The position numbers and the translations under genes are program-made. Below are positions 1,354 to 54,400 of a stretch of DNA of 64,000 bases, in pieces. A model generated the notes under the pieces. The model was not told the DNA's origin. It saw nothing but the letters and a program-made list of their open reading frames with translations, and searched no databases. How positions within the stretch are numbered: the first letter of the stretch is position 1; each line of letters opens with the position of its first letter. Source of the stretch: Tetrahymena thermophila SB210 (lineage: Eukaryota; Ciliophora; Oligohymenophorea; Hymenostomatida; Tetrahymenidae); the NCBI RefSeq assembly GCF_000189635.1, contig NW_002476319.1, positions 620,001 through 684,000 on the forward strand, read 5' to 3'.

Positions 1354-4300
1354 ATGTCAGAAAACTTAAAAGTATTTGGACAAGGGAATTAGCCACTATA
1401 ATAAAATAAATTACAAATATAGATTAATGATTCATTCAATGGAGATGGTAGTACTCTTTTTTAATCAAAGTAAAATTCATAGTAAAGGAAACATTCTATG
1501 CCTGTTTTAAAGCAATAATCACATTTTGATTGTGATAAATCTAATATGTAAACGACTCAGATTTTAGAACTAAATTCAGAAAGATCATAATTTAAAATTA
1601 ATAATGGAGAATTCAAGTAAAGTATGTAACGAAAATCTACAAATTTAGACTCTTCAGAGAGGTATTTGCTCTCATAAATATCTAGCTTTAGAAGTTAGCA
1701 TCATTCGCCATTAAATGATAAAACTCTTTATAATTAGTTTAGCTTAAATACTAAAAGAAATATTGGAAATTTCGAATCTTTAAATGAAATAGGGCAAAGG
1801 CTTAAACTGCAGTATCATGGAAATGTGAGTACTCCTCAAAGTGGAAGCGCTAGATCTTCTAAGAACTCAATTTAGAATACCTTATAATAAAAAAATAATT
1901 TGACTTATTCTGCTCAAAATTAATTAAACAGAGATAGCTCTTAGAATAGCTAAGATTAATATCATAAAAAAATAGTATTAACTCCAAAAGTAAAGACTGG
2001 CATGAATCAAAATTTTAGTCTATTTTAATCGCCACAAAGTTCTAGATTTTATTAATAGTCTTTTAAAGATCAATCAGATTCATTTAAGCTGAATACCTAA
2101 TAATTTAATCATCCTTAAGATTTGCATATCGATTTGAAATTTCTGGCTGAAAATTCCACAACTTAAGTATTAAATAAAAACGCACCAAAAGAGAAGAAGG
2201 CAGATGTTTCTAAACAAAATTGGGGTAGGCCAATAACAGAATAAAAATAAAGATTCGTCTCTTTGGATTAAGCTAATATAAATGATATTTAATTTGAAAA
2301 TAAAAAAGATGAAGAATAATTTCTTAAAAAGAATGTCCCTCTTTTTAACAAAAACTTCTTAGGTATATAACTTGCACTCAATAATAAAACATGCCTCAAA
2401 AAATTGTTAGTGACTTCAAATAATTCAAATGAAACCAAAAATGAAGATTAATACTAACAATATTCTAAAAATTATAGAAACTAAAGACTATAAAATTTAA
2501 TATTTAATAACAGCAGCAGCAATAATAATAGTAAAAACTTCCTTTAAGAATAGTAGCCAAGTTAAATTAATTAAATCACCAAGAAAATTTTTGGTCAAGT
2601 CTTTCCAGGCTAAAAAGATTCTCCTTACAATTCAAGCTAATCTGCAAATTCTCCATCGTACTCGGAAGCATTTTTTAAAAACAGTGGTTCTTACACAGCT
2701 AAGTTTAGTTCAAATGAGAGATAATCCGAAAATTAAGCTGCAATTAACATTGGAGGATTTTCTACTACTACTCATAGATTTTACAATTAAAAGAGTGATT
2801 AAAGTTTAACGAATAAATGGAAATACAAATAAAACATACAAGATAAAAATATAGCTTAGACAGGATAACCTAAAAATTCTAACTTCAATGAAACAATAAA
2901 TAATCACTCATCAAATTAAATATTTCTCCAAAATAACTTTACCAGTCAAAAATAACTCTCATAAAATCTAGGTTAAAAGCTTTCTTCGTCATTACTTTCA
3001 TGCTAGAAGATTATATCTCCAAGATCTTCGCATAATTTGCTATTGTAAATACACTAAATCGATGGAGATGATACCAATCATTTGAAAAGCAGTTAACATA
3101 GAATCTCAATCAAAGCACCAAGCGATTCCAAATTGGATAAACAATAATAAAGATCTTAAAAAAATACATCCATCGTTTTAGAGAATTCACATAACGACCA
3201 TGATATTTCATTTGAATAGTAAAATTAAATGAAATTTACTAAAATATCAGAAGAAAATGAAAATATTCTAAACGATTAAAATTCTAAATTTACTAGTAGA
3301 TATAATGAGCTCATTCTATCAAAGAGAAGATCAAAATCTAGCTACTAGTAATCTCTGTAAAAATAGATTTCAAAACAGATAGGAATTGATTTAAAGAAGT
3401 GTATGCCTCAAAAAATGAAAATAGATACATTTAGGAAACAAAGTCACAGTTATGATCACAGAGGATAAAAGCTATTTACTAAAACACAAATATAAGTTTG
3501 CTTTGATGAAATTTAAAAATAAATGACTCAAAAAATATAACATGATTACTAATACAAGCTAATGATTAGTGAAACAGAACTCAATTAGGAATAATTTATT
3601 GAAAGGCTTCTAATATTTATTTCTTACTGCTTAAATTAAAATTTAGTAAATAGCTCTTTAAATGTTTCTAAATCGCATAAGCAGTTATAACCTAAGTCTT
3701 TAATTATAGCAGCTGAGACTTAAATTCAAAGCCAACATTTACAATATAAAAGTTAAGAAAATAAATTACAACAATAAGTCTATCAAAGCAGTTAATAAAC
3801 AAGAGCTAAAATAAAATCTAATGGAGCTTTTAGACTTTCAACTTCTTCTTAATAAACTTTAAAAAACATTTTCAGCGATTTAGCTATCCCATTTTAGTTT
3901 TAATAAATGCTCATTGATGATATTATTGAAATATTTAAGTAAAGAGTTTCAGATAATAATGCCCTATCAATATTTTAAGAACATCTAAAGAGGAGCATAT
4001 AGACTATTTTAATGCCAAAGCAGATCATTCAAGAAATAGGTGGTAAGCTAAATGCAAAAAGGATCTTTACACAAGCATTTGAACATTTAGAAGAAGTCTA
4101 TTTTGTGAATAAGCAAAGTTACTTAAATGATAATCATAGCAATAAAGATGAAAATGATTTAAATCTTTACAAAACAGGAGAAAATCTAATTTTAGATTAC
4201 ATAATATCTCTAATTAATAATGAAATACGATCTTTTGATAGTGAAAAAAACATTATTTAATTTTCTAATTTGCATTTCTTTTTTTTCAAGCTATCAATAT

Positions 4301-37260: not shown

Positions 37261-38164
37261 TTATTTTTAATCAATCCTATTTATATATAGCTAGCTATCT
37301 AATTCAACAAATTTAGATTGAAGAAAGGTTTTTAAGATTAATTGATTATATTTGATTGATTGACTGATAGATATATCTTTATTAGAATTGAATAATAAAT
37401 AGTAAATATCTTATAAAACTATATGTCTATAAGCCTTTTTTAACAAAAAAACTAATAATTCATTTTATAAAAATAAAAAATTACTTAAAGTAAGCAAATA
37501 AAGTTTAAACAAATTAAAATACATCTATTAATTAGAATTGCTTACATTTATATTTTTTTGGTAAAATTTTAAATATTTAAAAGCTATTTACTGCCCATAG
37601 ATATTGTAACTTAGTTTTTTAATTAATTTTCAAAAAATAATTAAGTGATAATACAATATCAAATTAAAATATTTTTCATGAATAGTTTTTACATAAAAGG
37701 TTTTATGCTTATTATTAAAATTTTTTAGATTAATGAAAATTAAAAATGTAGAATAAATGTAAAAGAGTGAATAAAATAATCATAAAATCTGATAAAATTA
37801 TCTTATTTTAGATATGAAAATGTATAATTAGATTAATAGACCTAATTAAATATCATTAATTTAAAGAACCTGATATCAAATTGTTAAAAAAATACTATTA
37901 TTGTAATTGTATACTAATTAAAGGTAAATTTCAAAAATAATTATGTAATATCATGTAGATTTTGTCGAATATATTTGTATATACATGAATAATCATTATT
38001 CATCTCTTAAAAATGCTAAAACAATTGCAAAAAAAACTAGTTTTTTTATGATCACAAGGTAAAATAATAAGAATATTTGTTAATCTTGTAGTTTATCAAA
38101 ATTTAATATAAATTGATATTTATCAATAAACATTTAAGTAGGTAAAACTTTAACAATTATTTGT
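37261..38164. other. Divergent intergenic spacer
   Basis: About 0.9 kb between divergent genes (U2AF-like on minus, kinase-TPR on plus), so it should contain both promoters. AT-rich; no exon or distinct motif was recognised. Confidence 0.6.
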
Positions 38165-41100
38165 ATGATTTATCAAAATCCAGATGAAAACAAAGAAAAA
38201 ACTATGGAACGAATTTAAAACGAATAAAGTGCTAGCTTAAATGAATTAGATAGCCAACCTTTTAACTCTAAATTTGATATCACTTTAAACAAAAGAAATA
38301 GGAAAAAGCTTAACTATAAAGCTTAAGAATTCCCTTCTTAAAATTTAAGCAAATAGGATGAGGAAAAATGTGATTTAAACTAAAATATTTTAGAAGGCCA
38401 TGGCAGTGAATATACCATGATAAGCATGGAATAAGACATTACACACAATAAAAGGCTTAAAAAGAAAAATAGCGAAGTGAATGGGAGTGAATCTCTATCG
38501 GAAATCCAAGCAAAATCAAATGAAATAAGTTTTGAATATAATTAAGATGGTTCTCTTTATCAACAAAGCAGTGAAGTAACTGATTCTAATATATCAAAAG
38601 AAGATGAATTTGAAAATATAGGAAAAGTAAGCACTTCCAGATAAACAAACAGATCTTTTTTCTTCAACAGCAGTGTTTCTTAGCATAGAATTTTATCAAA
38701 GCAGCTTGAAAGAATGAAATCTAAGTGCTCCTTAAATCTGCAGCTAAATAAGTTAGAATCTAAACAAGATAGCTAAGAAGATGAAGAAAATGAAGTGGAA
38801 GAAGATGAAGACGATGAAGAAGTCGAATATGAAGATGAAGAAGATGACAGCAGCAAACTTAATTATTAAAAAATAGATAACGATTTATAATAAAAAAGCT
38901 GGAAAAAAAGATTGGCAAACGATTATTTAATATTGGAAATATTAGGAAACGGTGGATAAGGAAAAGTGGCAACATTTCTTGATAAAAACAATAACAATAT
39001 TATAGCATTAAAAGAATTTGCAAGGATATAAGAGTTTGACAGAGAGTCTAAGATTTATAAATTTTTATAAGAGCATACTGGACTTCACGACTATATCAAC
39101 TTGATGCTTGATGAAGACAGGAGCTAGAGATAAATAAAAATGCAAATGGGTTGCTGTAATCTCTATGAGATGTACATTCATATGAAAAACTATAATACTT
39201 CGTTTCCTAAAAACTAGATATGTTGGGAACAAGACCACCTAATTAAAATATTTAGATAACTAATTCATGGCCTTATAGCATTTAGACGAAACAAATTCTT
39301 TCATGGTGATATAAAGCCTCATAATTTAATGCTCTTCTCAGTAGAAAATGTATTTAATCACTATATGGTTAAATATATTGACTTGGGAGCTGCTGGATTC
39401 GAAGAAAAAGAGTACTATGAATTTTATTCTGATTAGTTTTATCACCCTGAATATTTGGATATGATTGTAATGAAAGAGTATGTACTCAGCGAAGTAGAAG
39501 TTAATATTTGTGAAATATTCGCAATCATCCGTTCAATTTGGATTATAATATGCTTCGAAAGAGAAGATGTTAATAACTTTAAATAATATCCTGAACTTGA
39601 TTTTGGAATAGAATTTATTAAATCAAAATATCCAAGACTTGCTTCACTTATGCAAAAAGTAGTTGACTTCAAAGGAGATTTAGATTTGATTGAAAAAACT
39701 ATTAACGAAGATTAGTGTAATATTAAATTTATTCTTTTATATTTAAATATATAAATAAATCAGTTTAATCATACTTAAATTACGAGGGTAAGCAATATTA
39801 GAAAGCTCCTCAAATAAATAAATAAATTATTTGTTAAAAAAATTTTTAATTTTATATAATTTCACAAAAAAGAACAAATAAACAATTTTGATGAAAAAAT
39901 AATTCAATTTTTTATTTATTATGAATAAAAATATTTAATTGTTTTTATAAAAATAAATAGTAAATGAATCTATTATCAATCCATTGAATAGCTTGTGTTT
40001 GATTGACCCTTTTAAGATAGATGAATATAAACAAAAATACTGCCACTTTGATATTACATAGAATTATTTAAAATTAAGTGACTAAATGAAGGAGTTAATT
40101 TAGAATATTATTTAAATGAAGAAAGAAAAATTTATAAATGAGTAAAGTGAAGACTAACTTTAAGAACTTTTTGAAATTTTATACAGTTTGGGATAAGATC
40201 AGAGAGCTCTTGAAATATTTCATAAATTGGAGTCTTCATACGAGAGATAATTTAAGGTATTATTGGGTGAAGAAAAAGGCAAATTAGATAATAAACAACT
40301 TTCAGAAGAAAATGTTTATACAAAAGTAAGGGTCATAAAAGAGAGTATAATATTGTTAAATGAAAAGGGTGAACTTGATAAAGCTATTTTTTGGAATAAA
40401 AAGCTTTTAAATTTATTTTCTTCTACTAAATGGAGGAACAATAGAGAGGCTATTTTAGCTACTATTTAGTATTCTATTTTATTAAATACTAAGGGTGATG
40501 TGATGTCATCTCTATAAATGTCAAAAGATGCCAGAAATAAGTACAAAGAAATGGTTTTTGAGTAAGTTCAATAAAATAAAGAAACCTTTAAGATTTAGCT
40601 TCAAAGAGACTCTCTGTATGGCTATATTTGCTAAGTCATTGGGAGACTTTATGTAGAAATTAATTCCTATAGCAATGGTCTTAAATATTTAAAATAGGCT
40701 TTACAAATTTTTGAATGCTTAAAAAAAGAAAATTTAAATTAGAATAGCTAAACTAATCTAAATGAGAGTGAAATAGAATTCGAAGACTTAAATAATATGA
40801 TTTAGCTAACTCTCATTAAGCTTTCTCAAGCAAGTCTCTTTTTAAGGCATAATAATAAAGCACTAGAGTATATAGATGCAGCTATTTAGAAAGGTAAGTA
40901 AATGTATGGAGAAAGACTGAATAAGCAGCTTGCTTCATGCTTGAACATTAAGTCTCATATTTTGAAACAGTAAAACTAAGATTTGTAGGCCTTAGAGCTT
41001 CAAAACAAATGTTTGGAGATTAGATTAAAAATACATAACCAAGTTGACCACAGGTTTATTTCAAATAGTTTGAACTCGATATCTCTTCTAGAAAGTAAAA

Positions 41101-42539
41101 TTGGTTTCCACGAATAAGCACTTTAAAATTAAGAATAATGCTATTAAATGAGATTAAGACTTTATCAAAAAAACAATCCTTTTCATAATTAAATTATTTC
41201 TTGTTTAAGAAACTTTGGTATTATTTATTTGAAAAAAGGAGATTATGAAAAATCAGAATCTTACTTTCTTTAAGCTCTTGAACTTGCTGATAAAAGCAAT
41301 GACTTATTCTCAAAAATGAACAGTCTTAAAATGTTAGAAAAATATTATAAACAAGTTCATCAAATTGAAAACTATAAAAAATATTAAAATCTTAGAATTT
41401 AAACAAAACTATAGATACTAGAAGTGAAAAAGAATATGTAGATTCAAAAGGAATATCAAAATTCAATTAATTAATCAAGGAGAAAAATGAGTTCCTAAAC
41501 AGAAATAGTTGTAAGTAGTCCTATTAGCTAACACTAACAGGCTAGCGATGAAGAAAATGGAAACAATAGTGCTGAAAGCAAGAAATTAAGAAAATCTGCT
41601 TAAAAAAAGCAATAAAAAGGATAATCAAACTTAGATTCGTCTTAATTAACTTCCTAAGATTAAATTTAGCTTACTAAATCCTACCCAATAGAAATAACAT
41701 AGTCAATAATAATCAATAAAGCTATTGATAAAAAATAGAAAAATTAAACTAAATCTTTTGCTAAAGTAAAATCCCCAACTTCTTCTAATGGTGAAATATA
41801 AGCTGAAAAAGCTCCAAAACCTAGACCAAAATATAAGAAGAAAACTAGAAATATTTAGTTAAATTCAATAATCATAGAAGAAAGTGTATAAGAGATCAAA
41901 GAAGAATCAAATGAAAAAGCTGGATTTTCTTAATTACTTGAAAGTTAGCCAATAAAAGATTAGCAACTAGAAAAGCAAAACTATAAAAAAAATGATGGAA
42001 AAAGGCATCCAAAGAAAAAAAATAATAAGTCTTAATCTGAAATAGGAGAAATACCAATCTAAGATGATGACAATAATAATAACAATAACACAATTTCTTT
42101 GAAAAATAAAATTTAAAAATAATATGTTGAAGACCCAAACGATATTTTTAAAGACACATAAAAAATAGCCAAAAATAGATTAGATAACTTATCAGAAATT
42201 GATATTGATAAAAACTAAAAATCGTTGCATACTACATTTTAGAGAGGCAAAACAAAATCTTACCAAGAATAAACTCCTTGTGATGATAATCAGAAACCTG
42301 CCTATTAGAATTAAAAGCCTACAAATAATAATAACAGCAACAAAGGCACTAATAACCTATTATAAAGTAATGATAAAAAGTATAATAAGTATAAAGGAAA
42401 TAAGTATCAAAAGGGAAAGAACAGCAATCTCAACAAGAGTAATAAAGACCTTTACCAAGAATAAGAGTATATTGAGGTAATATAAACCGAATCTAAGTAA
42501 TAACCAAAATAAGAATCATTTGAAGAAAAAAAATGTTGA
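38165..42539 (+). CDS. Acidic protein kinase with long TPR/disordered C-terminus, 1376 aa, 2 exons
   Basis: Exon 1 38165-39716, intron 39717-39960 (244 nt, GTAATA...AAATAG), exon 2 39961-42539. Residues 1-230 are disordered and end in a dense Asp/Glu block. The kinase domain follows: LGNGGQGKV (from ~260), IALKEF with K283, HGDIKPHNLM (H380, D382; Gly replaces the HRD Arg), IDLGAAG (D406; DLG replaces DFG) and HPEY in place of APE. The key Lys and Asp residues remain. Exon 2 encodes helical TPR-like repeats (for example NFGIIYLKKGDYEKSESYFL), then a long Lys/Gln/Asn-rich tail. The exon joint is phase-perfect and reproduces the kinase-TPR layout of the 20079 gene. The alternative is two genes: kinase ending at TGA 39965-39967 and a TPR gene starting at ATG 39921. 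Substrate unknown. Confidence 0.75.
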
Positions 42540-43298: not shown

Positions 43299-45651
43299 AT
43301 GTTGCTATCTTGTTTTTGTGAAAAAGAAATCAACTGCAGCTAGTCTGATAAGGATTTGATTACTCATATTTCTAACTGCAAGAAATTTCAAGAAGAGAGC
43401 CCTTTAGCTAAAGAATTTAATGATATTCCAATAAACGAACTTGAATTAGAACCACTTTATATCTTAAGGGGTGAACTATTGGGATATTTGGTGAAACTTG
43501 AATAAGTTATAATGGAAAGTAATATTTGTTTAGTCACATATTTTATTTAATAAAATATAAAAAAGAAAAAGGAAATTTAAAGTAAAGCATTGATGCATTA
43601 ATTAACGGTAAATATTAACTATCTATGAATGGTAGCAATCAGAAATAAGATAAATAATAATAGCTGTAGTAGTAATCAGATTCATAAAAGACTAATGAAA
43701 AAATAATAGTTTAAAGAAGGATGGAAGTAATTAATGAGAGTGAAGAAATTAAAAAAACTATCAAAAAACCTCTTAAGCAAAAATAAGAATTTGATTATTT
43801 CGAAGAATCTGATTTAGAAGATGATGGCAAAGCTAATCAAAAGCAAAACAAAAATGGTAACCCTGAAAATAAAAAAAAAGATATTTCAGATTACTATGAG
43901 AATTCCTAACCAGAATAGTTAGATTTAGCTACTATTTATGCAACTGATTAAACAACTTGTAATGGCTGCAAACAGAAATTTGATAGTAATTTCGATTGTG
44001 ATAAATTTTGGTTCTTAAATAATTGCTTGGATGTATTTTGTAAAAAATGCTTGTTAAAGTAAATAAATGAGGAATATATTCCAAATAAAGGTCAGATTAA
44101 ATGCAAACTTTGTAAATCAAAGTTCGAAAAAGAGGATTTCGAAAATATTTTAGGTAAAGAAAAATACGATAAACTAGATACTCAAGTACTAGAGTTAGGA
44201 TGTGACATAGTAGTTTGTATTAAGTGTAATTAAAAATTTGACTTCCAAAAGGGAGATCCCAATTCTCTTGTAAACAATAAAGATGGAAAACAATTGGATA
44301 AAAAACTACTACAGCATTATTCAGAAAACAGATTTGTTTGTTAAAACGCAGCATGTAAAACTGAATAATGTAGAAGCTGTAAATCTGTTCCTTATCACTT
44401 AGGCTATGAATGCTCTGACTTCTAAAAATTCTAAGAATCCAAGTATTAATTTATTTAGAAAAAAAATAAATATATTTTAGCTAAACTGATTATAAATTAT
44501 TAATAGGAGATGCAGGTACTGTAACGAACAGTTATAAGGTAAACCAAGGAATGAAAAAGCATTTTAAGATATTTGCAATTCGAAAGAGTGCTCCTTAAAA
44601 CAAAAAAATGCATGCAATTAAATCCTTAACGTAAATTGATTATTTATTTCATGTTGGAAAATTTAATTTTTAAAATAAAAGTGTGGCCATCCTTGCTGTG
44701 GTATCAAGAATGAGCTGAAGTGTCCACCTTGCCTCTTTGAAAAATGTGCCTAAGATAATGAAAGTTTAAAAGGGGTCACTGGTGAGGAATACTGCAATAT
44801 ATGTTTTATTGAAGGGTTGATTAATGCACCTGTTATGAGATCAAAGTGTGGACACATTTTCCATTATAGCTGTCTGAAAAAAAGGCTTGAAGTTAAATGG
44901 CTATCGCCTAGAATTGTATTTAATTTTTGTTTATGTCCTTTATGCAAACAGTGGATGGAATTAGCACCAGATTCAGATCTATATGATATGCTAGAGGAAA
45001 ATAGAAAGCTATTCAATACAATAAAAGATAAAGTAAAATAATTAAAAAATTAATTATGAAATTTAATTTATCATTTTTGAAAGGCAATAAAAAGACTTAA
45101 GCACGAAGGAAGAGAGAAAGATGAAAAGTTGGCAAAAAAAGATAGTCCGTATTTTGAAAAACCAGTTGAATATGCTATGGCTATTTATTCGTATTATATG
45201 TGCTATAAATGTAAAGCACCATATTTTGGAGGTCTGAAAGACTGTGAAAGAGCTCTAAATGATGATAAAAAAGATTTTTAACCTAAAGATTTAATATGCC
45301 CAAACTGTTGTGAAATTCCTGTAGAGAAATGTAAGTAGCATGGCACTGAATTCATAGAATTTAAATGCAGATATTGCTGTTCTATAGCTGTCTGGTTTTG
45401 TTTGTAATAAATTTTTTCATTAAAAAAATTATTTATAGTTTTACAATAAATTAATTAGTGGAACTACTCATTTTTGTGAACCGTGTCATAATAATGTAAG
45501 TAATTTACAACGAATGAAACCAAAAGATTATCCTATTTGCAAAGGGAAAAAAGGGTGTCCATTTTAAGGAGAGCATAATCCAAATGGGCAAGAAACACCC
45601 TTAGGATGCTCAATTTGTAGAAACATTAAGCAATCAGCTTCAGAATTTTGA
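43299..45651 (+). CDS. RING-Cys-relay (MYCBP2/PHR-type) E3 ubiquitin ligase with RBR-like module, 694 aa, 6 exons
   Basis: Exons 43299-43518, 43566-44442, 44507-44630, 44682-45032, 45084-45403 and 45459-45651. The C-terminal half follows the catalytic end of human MYCBP2: RING from C445 (EYCNICF, CGHIFHYSC, CPLCKQW), linker (IKRLKHEG), then the tandem-cysteine domain (YAMAIYSYYMCYKCKAPYFG; CRYCCSIAVWFCFGTTHFC; LGCSICRN). The relay residues align: C578 for upstream C4520, C630 for C4572, F631, F636 and H641 for F4573, F4578 and H4583; the C578-C630 spacing is 52, as in MYCBP2. RCR ligases pass ubiquitin between two cysteines and esterify Thr/Ser (known for MYCBP2). Upstream, residues ~205-390 hold an RBR-like RING/IBR pair (CNGCKQKF, CKKC, CKLCKSKF, CRSCKSVPYHLGYEC). 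MYCBP2 itself is ~4,600 aa; this is a compact version. Confidence 0.9.
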
Positions 45652-46716: not shown

Positions 46717-47070
46717 TTTTAGTATTTTAATTTTGAATTTGTTAAGTTTACAAGTAGAATGAAAAAAATCACAACAAAATGCTAAATTTTTAATAATTCT
46801 ATCAATCAATTTTTTGTTTTAAAAAAGAATCAAATCAAAGAATTTTATGTTTTAATTATTATATTGAATATGTATGTTCTAAATTAACTATCTATCTATC
46901 TATTTATGAGTTTTTAAAAATTTTTGAAATTATAACTATTTAGAGATTAAAAATTACTTGATATTTGTTTACTGAAACCTAATTCAAATAAAGATATTTA
47001 TTTGCAGATAACTTAAATAAAAAGTAATTGATTAAGTAGAGTAAAATACACGCAACTTTTAACCATTAAA
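46717..47070. other. Divergent intergenic spacer
   Basis: About 350 bp between divergent start codons, so both promoters must be compact. Contains a short CTAT repeat run near 46891-46903. Confidence 0.6.
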
Positions 47071-50000
47071 ATGAAATAGAATGACAAGGAATAGCTATAA
47101 GGAAATCACTAAGAATTCAAAAAATTTAGTTATTGTGCCTGTTTTTGGGAATACTTTAAAAATTTTATTGGTTTTTTGTTGAAAATGATCATATATTATG
47201 GAAGTATTGTTGCAGATATTTACTTGTGTATACAGTATTGGAATCAAGGCAAGCACTTCTTTGGTGTCTTAACTGGGTTTATGATTATTTGCCATATCTA
47301 CAAAACTTATGAAATATATGTTAATGAGCATAGACTCTATGGTTTAAAGGCTTTCTTTGAATTTTTAGGATTTGGATAGCTACTAAGATATTGGTTTTAG
47401 CCATGGTATATGGTTGATGCTATGCAGATTTAAACATATTAGGGAATAATGGAGGCTGCTCCAAGTTTTATGATAAATATTCTATCTATATTTTATGAAA
47501 ATAAGCCATTAGTATGGAATGTTAGTAATGACACTTACTAATAAGCTCAAGTTATATCTTTCTCTTTGAGCATAGTGTGCTTATTTTATTCTAATTACTG
47601 CTACTTTTATATAAGATATGAAGATTTCAAATAGTAAGCAAATTAAATTTTCATTCGATTTTTTTTTAATTCAAAACATATTAAATTGATAATTTATTAT
47701 TTAATAGAGCAGGCTAAAAAATGAAAGCCTTGTTTGCCGTTTTTAATTTTGGAGAATATACAGCTAGAGTATGTTCTTGGGGTCTTGCTGCATATTATGG
47801 AGGTTAGATTTTTGTTTGGACTATAATAGGAGTTGATTTATTATTTGCAATAATTGCCTCTTGTTTTAAGTTATCTGATCATAAATTAGTACCTTTTTAC
47901 GATTATGTGTTTTGCTTTCGAATGTATGATTGCTACTTGTTTTATGGTAACTAATTTGATAGCAGAAATTATGTAAATTTAAAGGAGTTTGAAAGATTCG
48001 GAGTTTAGCTTGCTGTTATCATCTTTGTCATATATTAGTTAAGCACAAATAACAACGAACCCGTTTTTTTTTATGCTATGCTTTATGTCTGTGTCATAGG
48101 GTTTATAATAAACTTTATTTACAACGTAAATAGATTGCTTTACAAAAAAGATGATGAGAGTGAAATCATCAAAACATATAAAAGAATGATTGAGAATTTA
48201 GAATAAGATAAAGTAGAGTTAAATCTTAAAATAAGGCATATTGTTCCATAGCAGTAGAAAGATGAAGAAAACAAGGCAACTCTTTTAAAATTAGATGAAG
48301 AAAATACACAGATGAAAGAAAATTTAAACACTCAGATTTAAGAACTCTAATAGCAGGTTTATTTTTATTAATTTAAAAAAATAATTTCTATTATTATATT
48401 TATGTTAAATAGATGCAATAATTAGATGAAAAATTAAAATAAGAAGAGAGTGCTAAAAAAGAAATAGAATAGCATAATGCTAAGCTTTTATAAATAAAGT
48501 TGTAATTAGAGGAAGATATTAAGAGTCAAAATAAAAAGATAGAAGAGCTAACAAAGAGCCTATAAAATGAACAAAAAACATCAGAAAACTTGAGAGGAGA
48601 CAAAGCAATATTTTAACAGCATTTGGCTGAGTAACTTGAAAATAAAATTATTTATTTAATTTAAGCTATTAACATAAATTATTAAGGGAAAGGAAACAAA
48701 ACGATGAACTTAAAAGAATAAATTTCTATTTGCAAAACGAGTAGGAAATTCCTCCGTTTTATGCAGAAAATATGCAAAAACAGCTCGATTAAATAAAAAA
48801 ATAAAATAGAGAAGCAGAAGAAAGATGGAAATAACTAGAGTAAATGTATTAAAAAAGAGAAAATGAGTTGAAAGAACAACTTTATAAGCAAGCAAACCAT
48901 GATATTGAAATTAATAGTTATTCTAGTGCTACACATTCTTTCAAAAAGTAAAACGAAGCTATAGCATAAAAATTAAGAGAAAAAGAAGCTTAACTTGTAG
49001 TGTGTTAAAACGAAATAAAAGAACTGAGAGATGAAGTGAAAAAGTTAAAATAAATAAACCAAAATTTAAATGACAAACTTCAAATAGAAGAGAAATTGAC
49101 TAATTAGCAAGAAATTGAAATGAAACTACTCAAAGAGTACAATCCAGAAGAATACTCCCAGAATTAACACTAAAATCTAAGTTTAACCTATTTAGCAACA
49201 GGTTCTGTTACCATAAACAAATTTGAAGACTACAAACTTTGTCAAAGAGATACAAACAGAATAGTCTTTAATAATTTTATAAACATGAATTTAATTGAAA
49301 AAATAAATCAAACTGTAAAGTTTCCTTACTACTTTTAGTTCAACTTTTCTAAAAAGTAAATATAAATGAAATATTTTTGATTTAATTTTGATTTTAAATT
49401 TAATTTTCATTTTTTAAATATTTTTTGTTCCATCTTAATTATTAAATCTTAAATTTTATCAATTATTAAATAAATAAATAGATCAAGTTTATTCAACACA
49501 GGATAAAATTATTAAAATGAATTATTTATATTTAGCACTTTAGCTACAAAAAATTACCCTCAAGCACTAAAGGTGATGTCTATTTTAGCATCTAAGTAAA
49601 TATGATTAATTGAGAATATTTGACATATAGACATTTAATTAAATTAGTTGGGTGAATGTTACATCAGAATCTTTCCAAAGTATTTTTAAAATCATAAAAA
49701 ACTGCACTTCATTAAAGGTTTTAGAGCTTAATCTTGAAAAGTAAGATTTAAACATAAAAGTAATTGAAAAATATATTTAAGTTATTATAAAAAAATAATT
49801 TTTAGCTGGGAAACTACATCTGAAGAAGTTAAAGTAAATGGATTTTGTTCAATATTTACATAAATAGTAGCTTGTGAGTATTTACTAGTACTTCATTTAA
49901 ATCTTTCAGGGTAAAATTAATTTTATTTATGCAATAAAAATAAAAATATTTTATTAGCCTAGGAAATTTAAATCAAGACATTTGGGATTCTTTGAGTTAG

Positions 50001-50892: not shown

Positions 50893-51479
50893 TTATTTTT
50901 TTCATTTATTTAAAACATTTATAAAAGTTTATATTTATTACTAAATAACTAATTGTCTTAGTTATTTTCATAATAAAAATCAAATATTTACAAAATTAAA
51001 TTCAAAATGTATTTGATAGTATTTCAATATTTATAAATTTTTACTGATTGTTTAATTATTTTAGAATATTATTTTGAACGTAAAACTAAATTTAACAAGT
51101 TTTTTTTGTTTAAAAAAATTAAAAAAAACTCTTCTTTTTTAAGTAAGTAAGTAAATAACTAATTATTATTTTTCATGTTAAAATCTCTACTCATTAATAA
51201 ACTCCTAAATTTTTATTAGTTTTAAATAAAGAATATTATTGTCTCTTTAAATTGCTTAATTAAATACTAACAATCTTTTTCAAAAATATAAAGTCAATAA
51301 GAATTTGAATACCTTCAATTAACACTAAATTTTTATAAAAGCTGTATTTTCAACTAAATTTTAGAATTAAAAATAGGGTTTTAAAAATATTTATAAAGGC
51401 AAATATTATTCTAAGGCTTTTCTTAAGCTTTAAAAGCTCCAGATTTATTTTTTTATATAATTGATATTTTATTTGGAAT
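50893..51479. other. AT-rich intergenic spacer
   Basis: Separates tandem plus-strand genes. No exon was recognised. It presumably carries the VPS13-like promoter. Confidence 0.6.
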
Positions 51480-54400
51480 ATGCTTGGCAACATTATTGAA
51501 AAAATTCTAAAATCCTACCTTGGATAATATCTAGATGGTATTGAGAGAAAGTATATTCATGTTGGTATGTTTTCAGGAAAATTTAAAGTAGAAAATGTTC
51601 GTATCAAGCAGGAATTAATTGACTTACTTGAATGGCCTATTAAACTTCAATTTTCTTTTGTCGAAACATTCGAAGTTAATTTTTAAATTACAAATTTTCG
51701 CTCTAAGCCTTTTAGAATTGAAATGAGTAACATATTTATGATGGTTCAACCAAAGGAAAAGAGCGAATGGAATTTGCACACATTTAACACCTTGGCTTAT
51801 AAATAAAATTGGCTAGAATATTATATACAGCAGTTTATATAGGAATAAGCGAAATAGGAGCAGGCTAAGCAGCTTAAATAAGGAGAGGCAACAGGAATGA
51901 GTGGCTATATAGAGCGGCTGGCAGCTGTAGTAGTGGATAATATAGAAATTTGCATTAAAAATGTTCACCTAAGATTTGAGTCTCAAAATCCAGTATATGC
52001 TTGGGGAATAACTATAGGTAAAATTGAAGCATTTACTGTAAATAACGAATGGAAAGAAAAGACGTTCGTTGATAGAATGAATGCTAAAGACAGAGATAAG
52101 CCCATAAATAAGCTAGTTTAAATTAAAAACTTTGGATTTTACTGGGAAAACAGCTAGGCTGAAATGTTTGCTAATTAAAATTAAGATGTCATTGTAGAAA
52201 AAATGTATGAATATGTTATTTATTAAGCTTAAGCAGGTGCTTTTGATTATAAGAGAGGATTTAGTTCAACTCAATACATTGTTTGTTTCTCAGTTGACTT
52301 GAGATTAATAATGAATTTTGTAGTGCAGAAATGGGATATACCTGAATTCGATATGAAGATATCTTTCAACAATATTGATATTAAAATTAGTCATGAGTAG
52401 TTAAAGGTAAATAAATATATTAATTACTATAAAAAATAATTTATATCAATTTAATGTGTTTGTTTAAAATTATTGAGAAAAACAAACAAAAATTTATACC
52501 AATTCATTTTTATTTATGATATAAAGGATATGTTAATGCTAAGCACACTTCTAAGCAATTACTAGTATTGTATGAGAATAGAAAAAGATAAAGTTAAGAT
52601 AAAAACATCAAAACCAGATATTGAGCATTTCAAAAGGGTTACATCAAGCATCAGATAGATAAAAGCTGAAATTAGTAGCATAAGTTCACTGCTGGATGGG
52701 TTTAACAGAGCTAACTTGATAGATTTAAATAATTAATATACTTTAAATTTAGATTTAGTAAATAATTAAGTTGAGTAAATTAACTAAAATGAGTAATATA
52801 AGTTGATGGATAGAAATCAGTTAAAGTCTTAACTTGACTAAAAATAAGAAAAACTACAATTGCTTAAATAAGAACTCAATATGCTGAGGAATTAATATTG
52901 GAGATTCTGTTTTGACAAGGTACAACAATTTCTCATGGAAAAATATTATAAAGAGAGCTTAAAAAAAATAATGTCCTCTAAAATACCAACAGTACAGAAA
53001 TTGGTAAAAGAAAAGGATTTTCAAAAGATTTATCAATACAAAATTTTAGATTAAAAGCAAGTGAAATGGTAAATTAAGAATTTATGTTTTTTTACTTAAT
53101 TTACTTTTGAAATGTATATGGCGAACATTATTTTTGTTTTTGATGTTTAGGATTATTTTTAAGATTTATTATTGACTATATATAATTTAGGTACAAAAAG
53201 GCAATTTAAAAAAATGATTTAGAAGATTTGGTTAGATGGAGTAAAATAGAAAATATTGGATAAAAATCTACAGAAAAATCAAAAAAAGAAAAATAAAAGT
53301 CAAGTAGAGGCTTATTTGGTTTCTCAAAGTAAGTTGAAAGTGAGGAAGAAGAGGAGAAAAACTTTAATTTAGCTAGAAAATTTGACAAAGCTAAGTATTA
53401 AGAAGCAATAGATTAAGTAAGATTCATAAAAATATTTTTATTTTTAAAATGAAAATAAAAGAACAAACAATTCACTTATTTAACTAATTTTTAATGATTT
53501 AAATAAACAAATAAAATATTTAATTTTCTTACTGTTTTTATCTAAAAATTTTAGGCTTTTCCTATCAGAAATGCAAATGTGAGACCAAAAGAATACGTTT
53601 GGATGCAAATAGAAGTGAAAATATAATCTTGTACTATTTAAATTAGTGAGTTAATTGAAATAGAGCAAGGTAAACATCCAAAATATCATGATAGAAACAG
53701 CAAAATCAAGTAAATAGAAGAGGGCTTGCTAACTCAATATTATGATATTAGGTTTGAAATGCTTAAAAGAGATATAAATTTTGAAATATCTACAGAGCTA
53801 AGAGATTTGTAAATGTGCCTTTTTACTTAATAGCAGGATTCTCGTAACCAAGTGCTGGTGCCTATTCTCAAAAAAGTTGAAACAATCAGTCAAGATAAGA
53901 AACCTCTTGTTTATTTTAGGTTTGAAAAATAGCCAATAAATAAACCCAACACTTTTTTTGTTTTGAACTCTGAAATTTAACAAATAATATTTACTTATTA
54001 CCCTTAAAAGTTGTAAAGAATAATTAGTTGGCTAGATTATTAAACTTAATTTGTTAGTTAATCTTAGCAACATCATGAAATTTAATCTAACTAAGAAGAA
54101 TATGACCTTTCTATGCTTAAAAAAGAACAAAATATTGTTATGAGAGCACCAATTATTGTTATCCCCTTGAATTCTTAGAGCAGCAACGAAAGTGAGTGCT
54201 TAGTTATTAACTTTCAAGAATTAAAATTCTAGTCAATAGATGAATAAATTAGAAATAAAAATTCTATTTTTGCCAACAACAGTAATGTAGCAAATAATAA
54301 TTCTGGTAATAACATAATTAATAGTCCAAATTCTAAGAATTATGCATTCTCCAAAGCTTCTCCTAATTAGAACCCTCTGATCCATTCCCCATCCTTAGGA

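Follow-up and report, generated by a model that had tools for sequence, protein, structure and literature searches.

A compact Tetrahymena protein with a RING-Cys-relay module and a probable RBR-like region upstream

A window of 64,000 nucleotides from Tetrahymena thermophila SB210 (contig NW_002476319.1, positions 620,001 to 684,000) contains at 43299..45651 a gene that raises a question of classification. A sequence-only reading had described its product as a compact protein, perhaps a minimal and ancestral RCR enzyme, with elements of two cysteine-transthiolating E3 classes, i.e., the RING-Cys-relay (RCR) module of MYCBP2 and, upstream, the RING1 plus IBR of RBR ligases. Are both parts present in one protein, and which of them would catalyse? 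Positions are those of the window; all features of the gene are on the + strand.

The gene model and the paralogue

With TAA and TAG read as Gln, the gene is modelled in six exons (43299-43518, 43572-44442, 44507-44630, 44682-45032, 45084-45403 and 45459-45651) encoding 692 aa. The model is based on the open frame, the GT-AG introns, the GC contrast and the alignment with a paralogue. The proposed bounds are correct to the nucleotide: the start codon ATG lies at 43299, 17 codons 3' of an in-frame TGA, and 45651 is the last letter of the stop codon TGA. The gene contains 30 TAA/TAG codons, and TGA is found in frame only as the stop. The five introns are 51-64 nt each. The exons have a GC content of 30.4%, the introns of 11.3% and the two flanks of 17.2% and 16.8%; over the window the values range from 17 to 27% (2-kb steps), in a genome of 101 Mb in 445 contigs. 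The length of 694 aa given before is not retained: the residue numbers used here are 2 lower, and the difference of two residues presumably reflects another splice choice upstream. The reading frame and the splice signals can be read directly from the DNA, and the transcript is presumably spliced at these signals.

Two genes of this kind were found in the genome. A search of the genome, in which the best candidates were scored and introns ignored, gave six matches for the RCR module and six for the upstream module, all of them at the window gene or at a second gene on contig C214 (666830-669348; 665 aa in seven exons, as modelled). The module order is identical in the two genes, and the low-complexity linker is shorter in the paralogue. 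Between the two proteins 51/55 Cys and 10/11 His are kept (i.e., 61/66), versus 244/626 of the other residues. The first intron of each gene, located in the poorly conserved linker, was left out of the intron comparison. Two intron positions are common, one at the border between IBR and bridge and one in the codon that follows the second catalytic Cys. The other introns, two of which belong to the window gene and three to the paralogue, do not coincide in position. Since the paralogue protein is collinear, the splice model is corroborated; since it is so with partly different introns, spurious splicing is judged unlikely. Two separate adjacent genes can be dismissed: no stop codon interrupts the frame from one module to the other, and in the paralogue the order and the intron at the IBR/bridge border are the same. 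Both paralogues having the same module order, the joined RBR-like and RCR architecture is taken to be older than their duplication.

Both proteins also share an N-terminal motif CxC-x15-H-x3-C (43311-43379), i.e., a putative zinc finger of the form CxC...HxxxC whose four residues (C5, C7, H23 and C27) are kept in the paralogue. Pfam gives no match for residues 1-75 at E <= 10. One may guess at a small ubiquitin-binding zinc finger.

Some neighbouring frames, all on the + strand, were also recognized. 5' of the gene are found a protein kinase-like open frame with an acidic low-complexity stretch (38117-39964; PF00069, E = 5.5e-14) and a TPR-repeat open frame (39690-42536). An XK-related fragment (47032-47721; 22.9 bits vs. 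a Pfam cut-off of 24.8) precedes ORFs in which a coiled-coil-like stretch is seen by eye. The N-terminal part of a VPS13-like protein is located at 51465-53579 (PF12624, E = 7.5e-43).

The RCR module

Residues 437-685 match the RCR structures of human MYCBP2 (6t7f_A and 5o6c_A) with E = 1.8e-65 (phmmer, PDB sequences), the span being 439-685 for one of the two entries. The match is far beyond chance. Up to E = 1, the whole protein has no further PDB matches except AMFR RINGs (E 0.21 and 0.87). The module is 43% identical to that of human MYCBP2, with both relay cysteines aligned, and the proposal of an RCR module in a compact protein is thereby borne out. The RCR part of the paralogue is also 43% identical to the human one.

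The RING-H2 domain (residues 443-493; 44793..44945) is recognized by the MYCBP2 match and by PF13639, which scores 27.6 bits in the genome search, i.e., above the cut-off of 27.3, and 22.2 bits in the protein scan, i.e., below it. The tandem-cysteine (TC) domain (residues 562-682; 45201..45618) is covered by the same MYCBP2 match and is interrupted by the intron 45404-45458. The columns invariant in the alignments with human MYCBP2 include Cys and His of both domains, and in residues 551-692 all Cys (17/17) and all His (4/4) are kept in the paralogue.

The window protein, its paralogue and human MYCBP2 were aligned three-way, the human numbering being anchored on C4572. C576 (45243..45245) is aligned with the upstream relay cysteine C4520 and C628 (45399..45401) with the downstream esterifying cysteine C4572; the paralogue has C546 and C598. 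Their spacing is 52, as in human MYCBP2, and is reached via compensating indels; the exact spacing had been noticed before, under the numbers C578 and C630, which are to be replaced. H639 (45487..45489) is aligned with H4583, presumably the triad His of MYCBP2. F629 aligns with F4573 and F634 with F4578, two residues which we take to line the hydrophobic threonine pocket; the paralogue has W599 and F604 there. The residues formerly numbered F631, F636 and H641 are indeed at the MYCBP2 catalytic positions.

The agreement with the MYCBP2 active site thus extends to the Cys, Phe and His positions but not to the acid, a point missed by the sequence-only reading. D591 (45288..45290) is aligned with E4534, the catalytic Glu of the human protein, located before the LIC motif; the paralogue has Glu561. 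It should be noted that each paralogue deviates from the human enzyme at one of these sites, i.e., the acid in the window copy and F4573 in the other. The second site of the RCR enzyme is described as a Cys-His-Glu triad in the excerpts of PMC9527308 dealing with the relay chemistry.

The upstream region and the bridge

Upstream of the RCR module three elements can be delimited: a RING1-like domain (residues 203-254; 43958..44113), the equivalent of the RING1-IBR linker helix (residues 255-288; 44114..44215) and a probable IBR-like domain of the RNF216 type (residues 289-354; 44216..44413). In residues 289-363 all Cys (7/7) and both His (2/2) are kept in the paralogue.

Pfam recognizes RING1 better in the paralogue than in the window copy: the isolated segment of the former scores 23.2 bits with zf-C3HC4, above the cut-off of 21 bits, versus 14.8 bits for the latter, whose best match is FYVE (E = 0.0042). 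The whole protein at E <= 1 gives six RING models, the best at the RCR RING and all under their cut-offs, together with a weak DUF, and no IBR model. No IBR model is obtained either with the IBR segments of both paralogues at E <= 10, a search in which the HMMER filters drop most matches above 0.1. The matches to DUF6739 and AZUL, an 8-residue match of IBR_1 in the RING1 segment of the paralogue (E = 3.9) and a single NCBIfam match (E = 0.58) look like chance.

The profiles made from the two paralogues are more informative for the IBR. The single upstream sequence of the window protein matches only BRCA1 RING chains in the PDB (E = 0.026-0.16). The whole-module profile has RNF216 as its best match (E = 0.01), via the IBR, the RING1 part contributing 8.9 bits; BRCA1 RINGs come next (E 0.016-0.038). 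The IBR profile matches the RNF216 IBR at E = 0.0014. Among the nine PDB sequences matched by this profile, the two RNF216 sequences are alone below E = 0.3; two are Ariadne-1 IBRs (E 0.69 and 0.97) and the other five look like chance.

The RING1-linker-IBR region was also compared, profile to profile, with five RBRs of the same genome, whose alignment was joined by eye and in which two of the five sequences are 89% identical. The comparison gives a probability of 96.2% and a score of 59.2 over 128 columns, the best of the controls being 23.6 (60 full shuffles) and 23.0 (60 shuffles with Cys and His fixed). Each of the five RBRs, left out in turn, scores at least 92.6 against the remaining ones. 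RING1 alone scores 43.1 (shuffle maxima 23.1 and 26.8), RING1 with the linker 62.4, and the linker alone 17.3 (maxima 15.9 and 14.5). The IBR alone scores 17.4, i.e., not above its shuffle maxima of 21.2 and 22.5; 60 shuffles were made for each of these maxima. The RING1 signal is partly generic, because the RBR RING1 scores 37.7 against the RCR RING-H2 as well; the RING1 of the window protein scores just 16.5 against that same RING-H2. A single-sequence AlphaFold prediction of residues 185-363 (mean pLDDT 34.6, pTM 0.22) was discarded.

As remote homology, then, RING1 is supported and the IBR probable. The RING1 plus IBR announced at about residues 205-390 holds for its first half and probably for its second. 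The profile search recommended for the IBR gave a divided answer, i.e., negative with Pfam on single sequences, positive with the paralogue profile on RNF216 and negative again for the IBR alone against shuffles.

Between the IBR and the RING-H2 lies a Cys-rich bridge (residues 366-427; 44511..44747, with the intron 44631-44681 inside), 52% identical between the paralogues. By eye, it consists of a C4 element and a CGHxC...CxPC element resembling B-box or NF-X1 fingers. Neither Pfam nor the PDB gives it a match at E <= 10. The bridge occupies the place of RING2 in an RBR. The catalytic motif of the RBR RING2 is of the GCNxM type; no RING2 with a catalytic cysteine is recognized in the bridge by Pfam or PDB searches, and no motif of this type is seen by eye. 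The idea of a protein combining two cysteine-transthiolating classes must be narrowed accordingly: the RCR module and an RBR-like RING1 are found, the IBR is probable, and the catalytic cysteine of a RING2 is not recognized.

Function and relation to known ligases

Three class assignments follow from the domain content. (i) By its module the protein belongs to the RCR class: a RING is followed by a homologous tandem-cysteine domain, with both relay cysteines, the hydrophobic pocket and the triad His in place and an acid that differs between the paralogues. (ii) It is not, on this evidence, an RBR ligase, because RING2 is not recognized; RING1 is found, with a remote and partly generic RING signal. 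(iii) It is not classed as a PHR (PAM/Highwire/RPM-1) protein, because a Pfam search of the 692 aa at E <= 1 gives no RCC1-like, PHR or other domain of the animal PHR proteins.

Animals have PHR and RCR in a single protein. In this genome PHR domains are matched at three places, on contigs C327 and C382, apart from the RCR genes; for C327, Pfam confirms the domain, which lies in an open frame of its own (E = 1.8e-22). Two PHR-domain frames on the reverse strand, L033 (about 2518-4200) and L034, are located 3' of a B-box-like Cys/His stretch and a coiled coil, both seen by eye; for L033 Pfam confirms the PHR domain and gives no B-box. Searches for relatives by pattern gave 140 stretches in viral contigs and 114 in bacterial and archaeal genomes, none of which was confirmed.

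The reading we favour, and hold to be likely, is that of a compact and probably active RCR E3 ligase whose RBR-like part serves as a regulatory and recruitment module binding ubiquitin or E2. Its activity, the relay, the specificity for ester formation and the function of the RBR-like part are all inferred from sequence. The RING-H2 (443-493) would dock E2~ubiquitin; ubiquitin would pass from E2 to C576 and then to C628; C628, with H639 and D591 as the acid, would esterify a hydroxyl, probably that of threonine. The RING1-helix-IBR, similar to the RBR fold and without a recognizable RING2, would most likely bind ubiquitin or E2. RING2 not being recognizable, such a regulatory role is the simplest reading. 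It is also suggested by analogy with the RBRs, where, according to excerpts of PMC9834252, the RING1-IBR helix and the IBR form an allosteric ubiquitin site. This role is proposed with moderate confidence. Against the favoured reading stand Asp as the triad acid, the score of the IBR alone below the shuffle maxima and the lack of a Pfam IBR match. A stronger version, in which an RBR-derived RING1-helix-IBR senses ubiquitin and activates an RCR module that replaced a lost RING2 (i.e., a ubiquitin-gated relay), is rather speculative.

The key question, in our analysis, is whether the RBR-like region was fused in ciliates or is a hidden part of all RCR proteins. The latter, i.e., an unrecognized common part of every RCR ligase within a zinc-rich B-box zone, deserves serious thought although we lean against it. 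It fits the B-box directly before the RING in C. elegans RPM-1 (figure legends of PMC9073554 and PMC2627918) and the position of the bridge, which is kept in both paralogues and stops 15 residues short of the RING-H2; the PDB matches, however, span the RCR part alone. If the module were also present in animal PHR proteins, RCR ligases would derive from an RBR ligase. At the other extreme, the upstream module could be a generic run of RING/FYVE-like zinc fingers with no particular link to RBRs. Its FYVE and RING models in Pfam, the absence of an IBR model there for the window's segments, the BRCA1 RINGs so close to RNF216 (and the sole matches of the single sequence) and the cross-match of the RBR RING1 with the RCR RING-H2 all agree with this. 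Yet in the IBR-profile search RNF216 stands apart from the other matches, and RING1, helix and IBR align in the RBR order, so that we regard a generic run as distinctly unlikely.

The two remaining alternatives concern function. RING1-IBR may be a second E2-docking site, the protein loading two E2s or passing ubiquitin between its modules; the RING1-like fold is backed by the profiles, whereas the E2-contact position is Gly in both paralogues (CNGC/CQGC) and at the fourth putative zinc ligand the window copy has Asp (CLDVFC) and the paralogue His (CLHPFC). The Gly does not exclude E2 binding, because the RING1 of RNF216 likewise has no large hydrophobic residue there (C517, in excerpts of PMC9834252). 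A second site is nevertheless rather improbable. That the window copy is a weakened or dead scaffold, the paralogue with its Glu being the active enzyme, is suggested by its Asp, since the paralogue and the human protein both have Glu there. The relay cysteines, His639, both Phe and the full set of Cys and His in residues 551-692 are kept, however, Asp is a conservative change, and the paralogue deviates from human as well; a weakened or dead copy is thus unlikely.

Among the literature matches listed, consulted in part and subscription papers aside, there is no mention of a non-animal RCR enzyme or of an RBR-RCR combination; outside this literature, protein databases may well carry an annotation of the gene or of its relatives. 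A non-animal relative of about 80 kDa (estimated from length) with the catalytic unit would make a tractable model, demonstrate that the relay is independent of neurons, and allow one to ask whether an RBR module regulates an RCR relay.

Compared with known systems, the window protein is closest to human MYCBP2 (PAM; PDB 5o6c / 6t7f) in its RCR module, sharing the RING-H2 and TC domains, relay cysteines 52 residues apart, the His, both Phe and the invariant Cys/His. It differs by its length (692 aa vs. about 4,600 aa, the figure of the sequence-only reading), by Asp in place of the catalytic Glu and by the RBR-like module upstream, the animal counterpart being compared over the RCR part only. 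RNF216 (TRIAD3, an RBR E3 ligase; PDB 7m4m / 8eb0) has the same RING1-helix-IBR order and a closely similar pattern of Cys and His in the IBR. In RNF216 the RING2 has a catalytic cysteine; in the window protein none is recognized, and catalysis would presumably take place in the RCR module.
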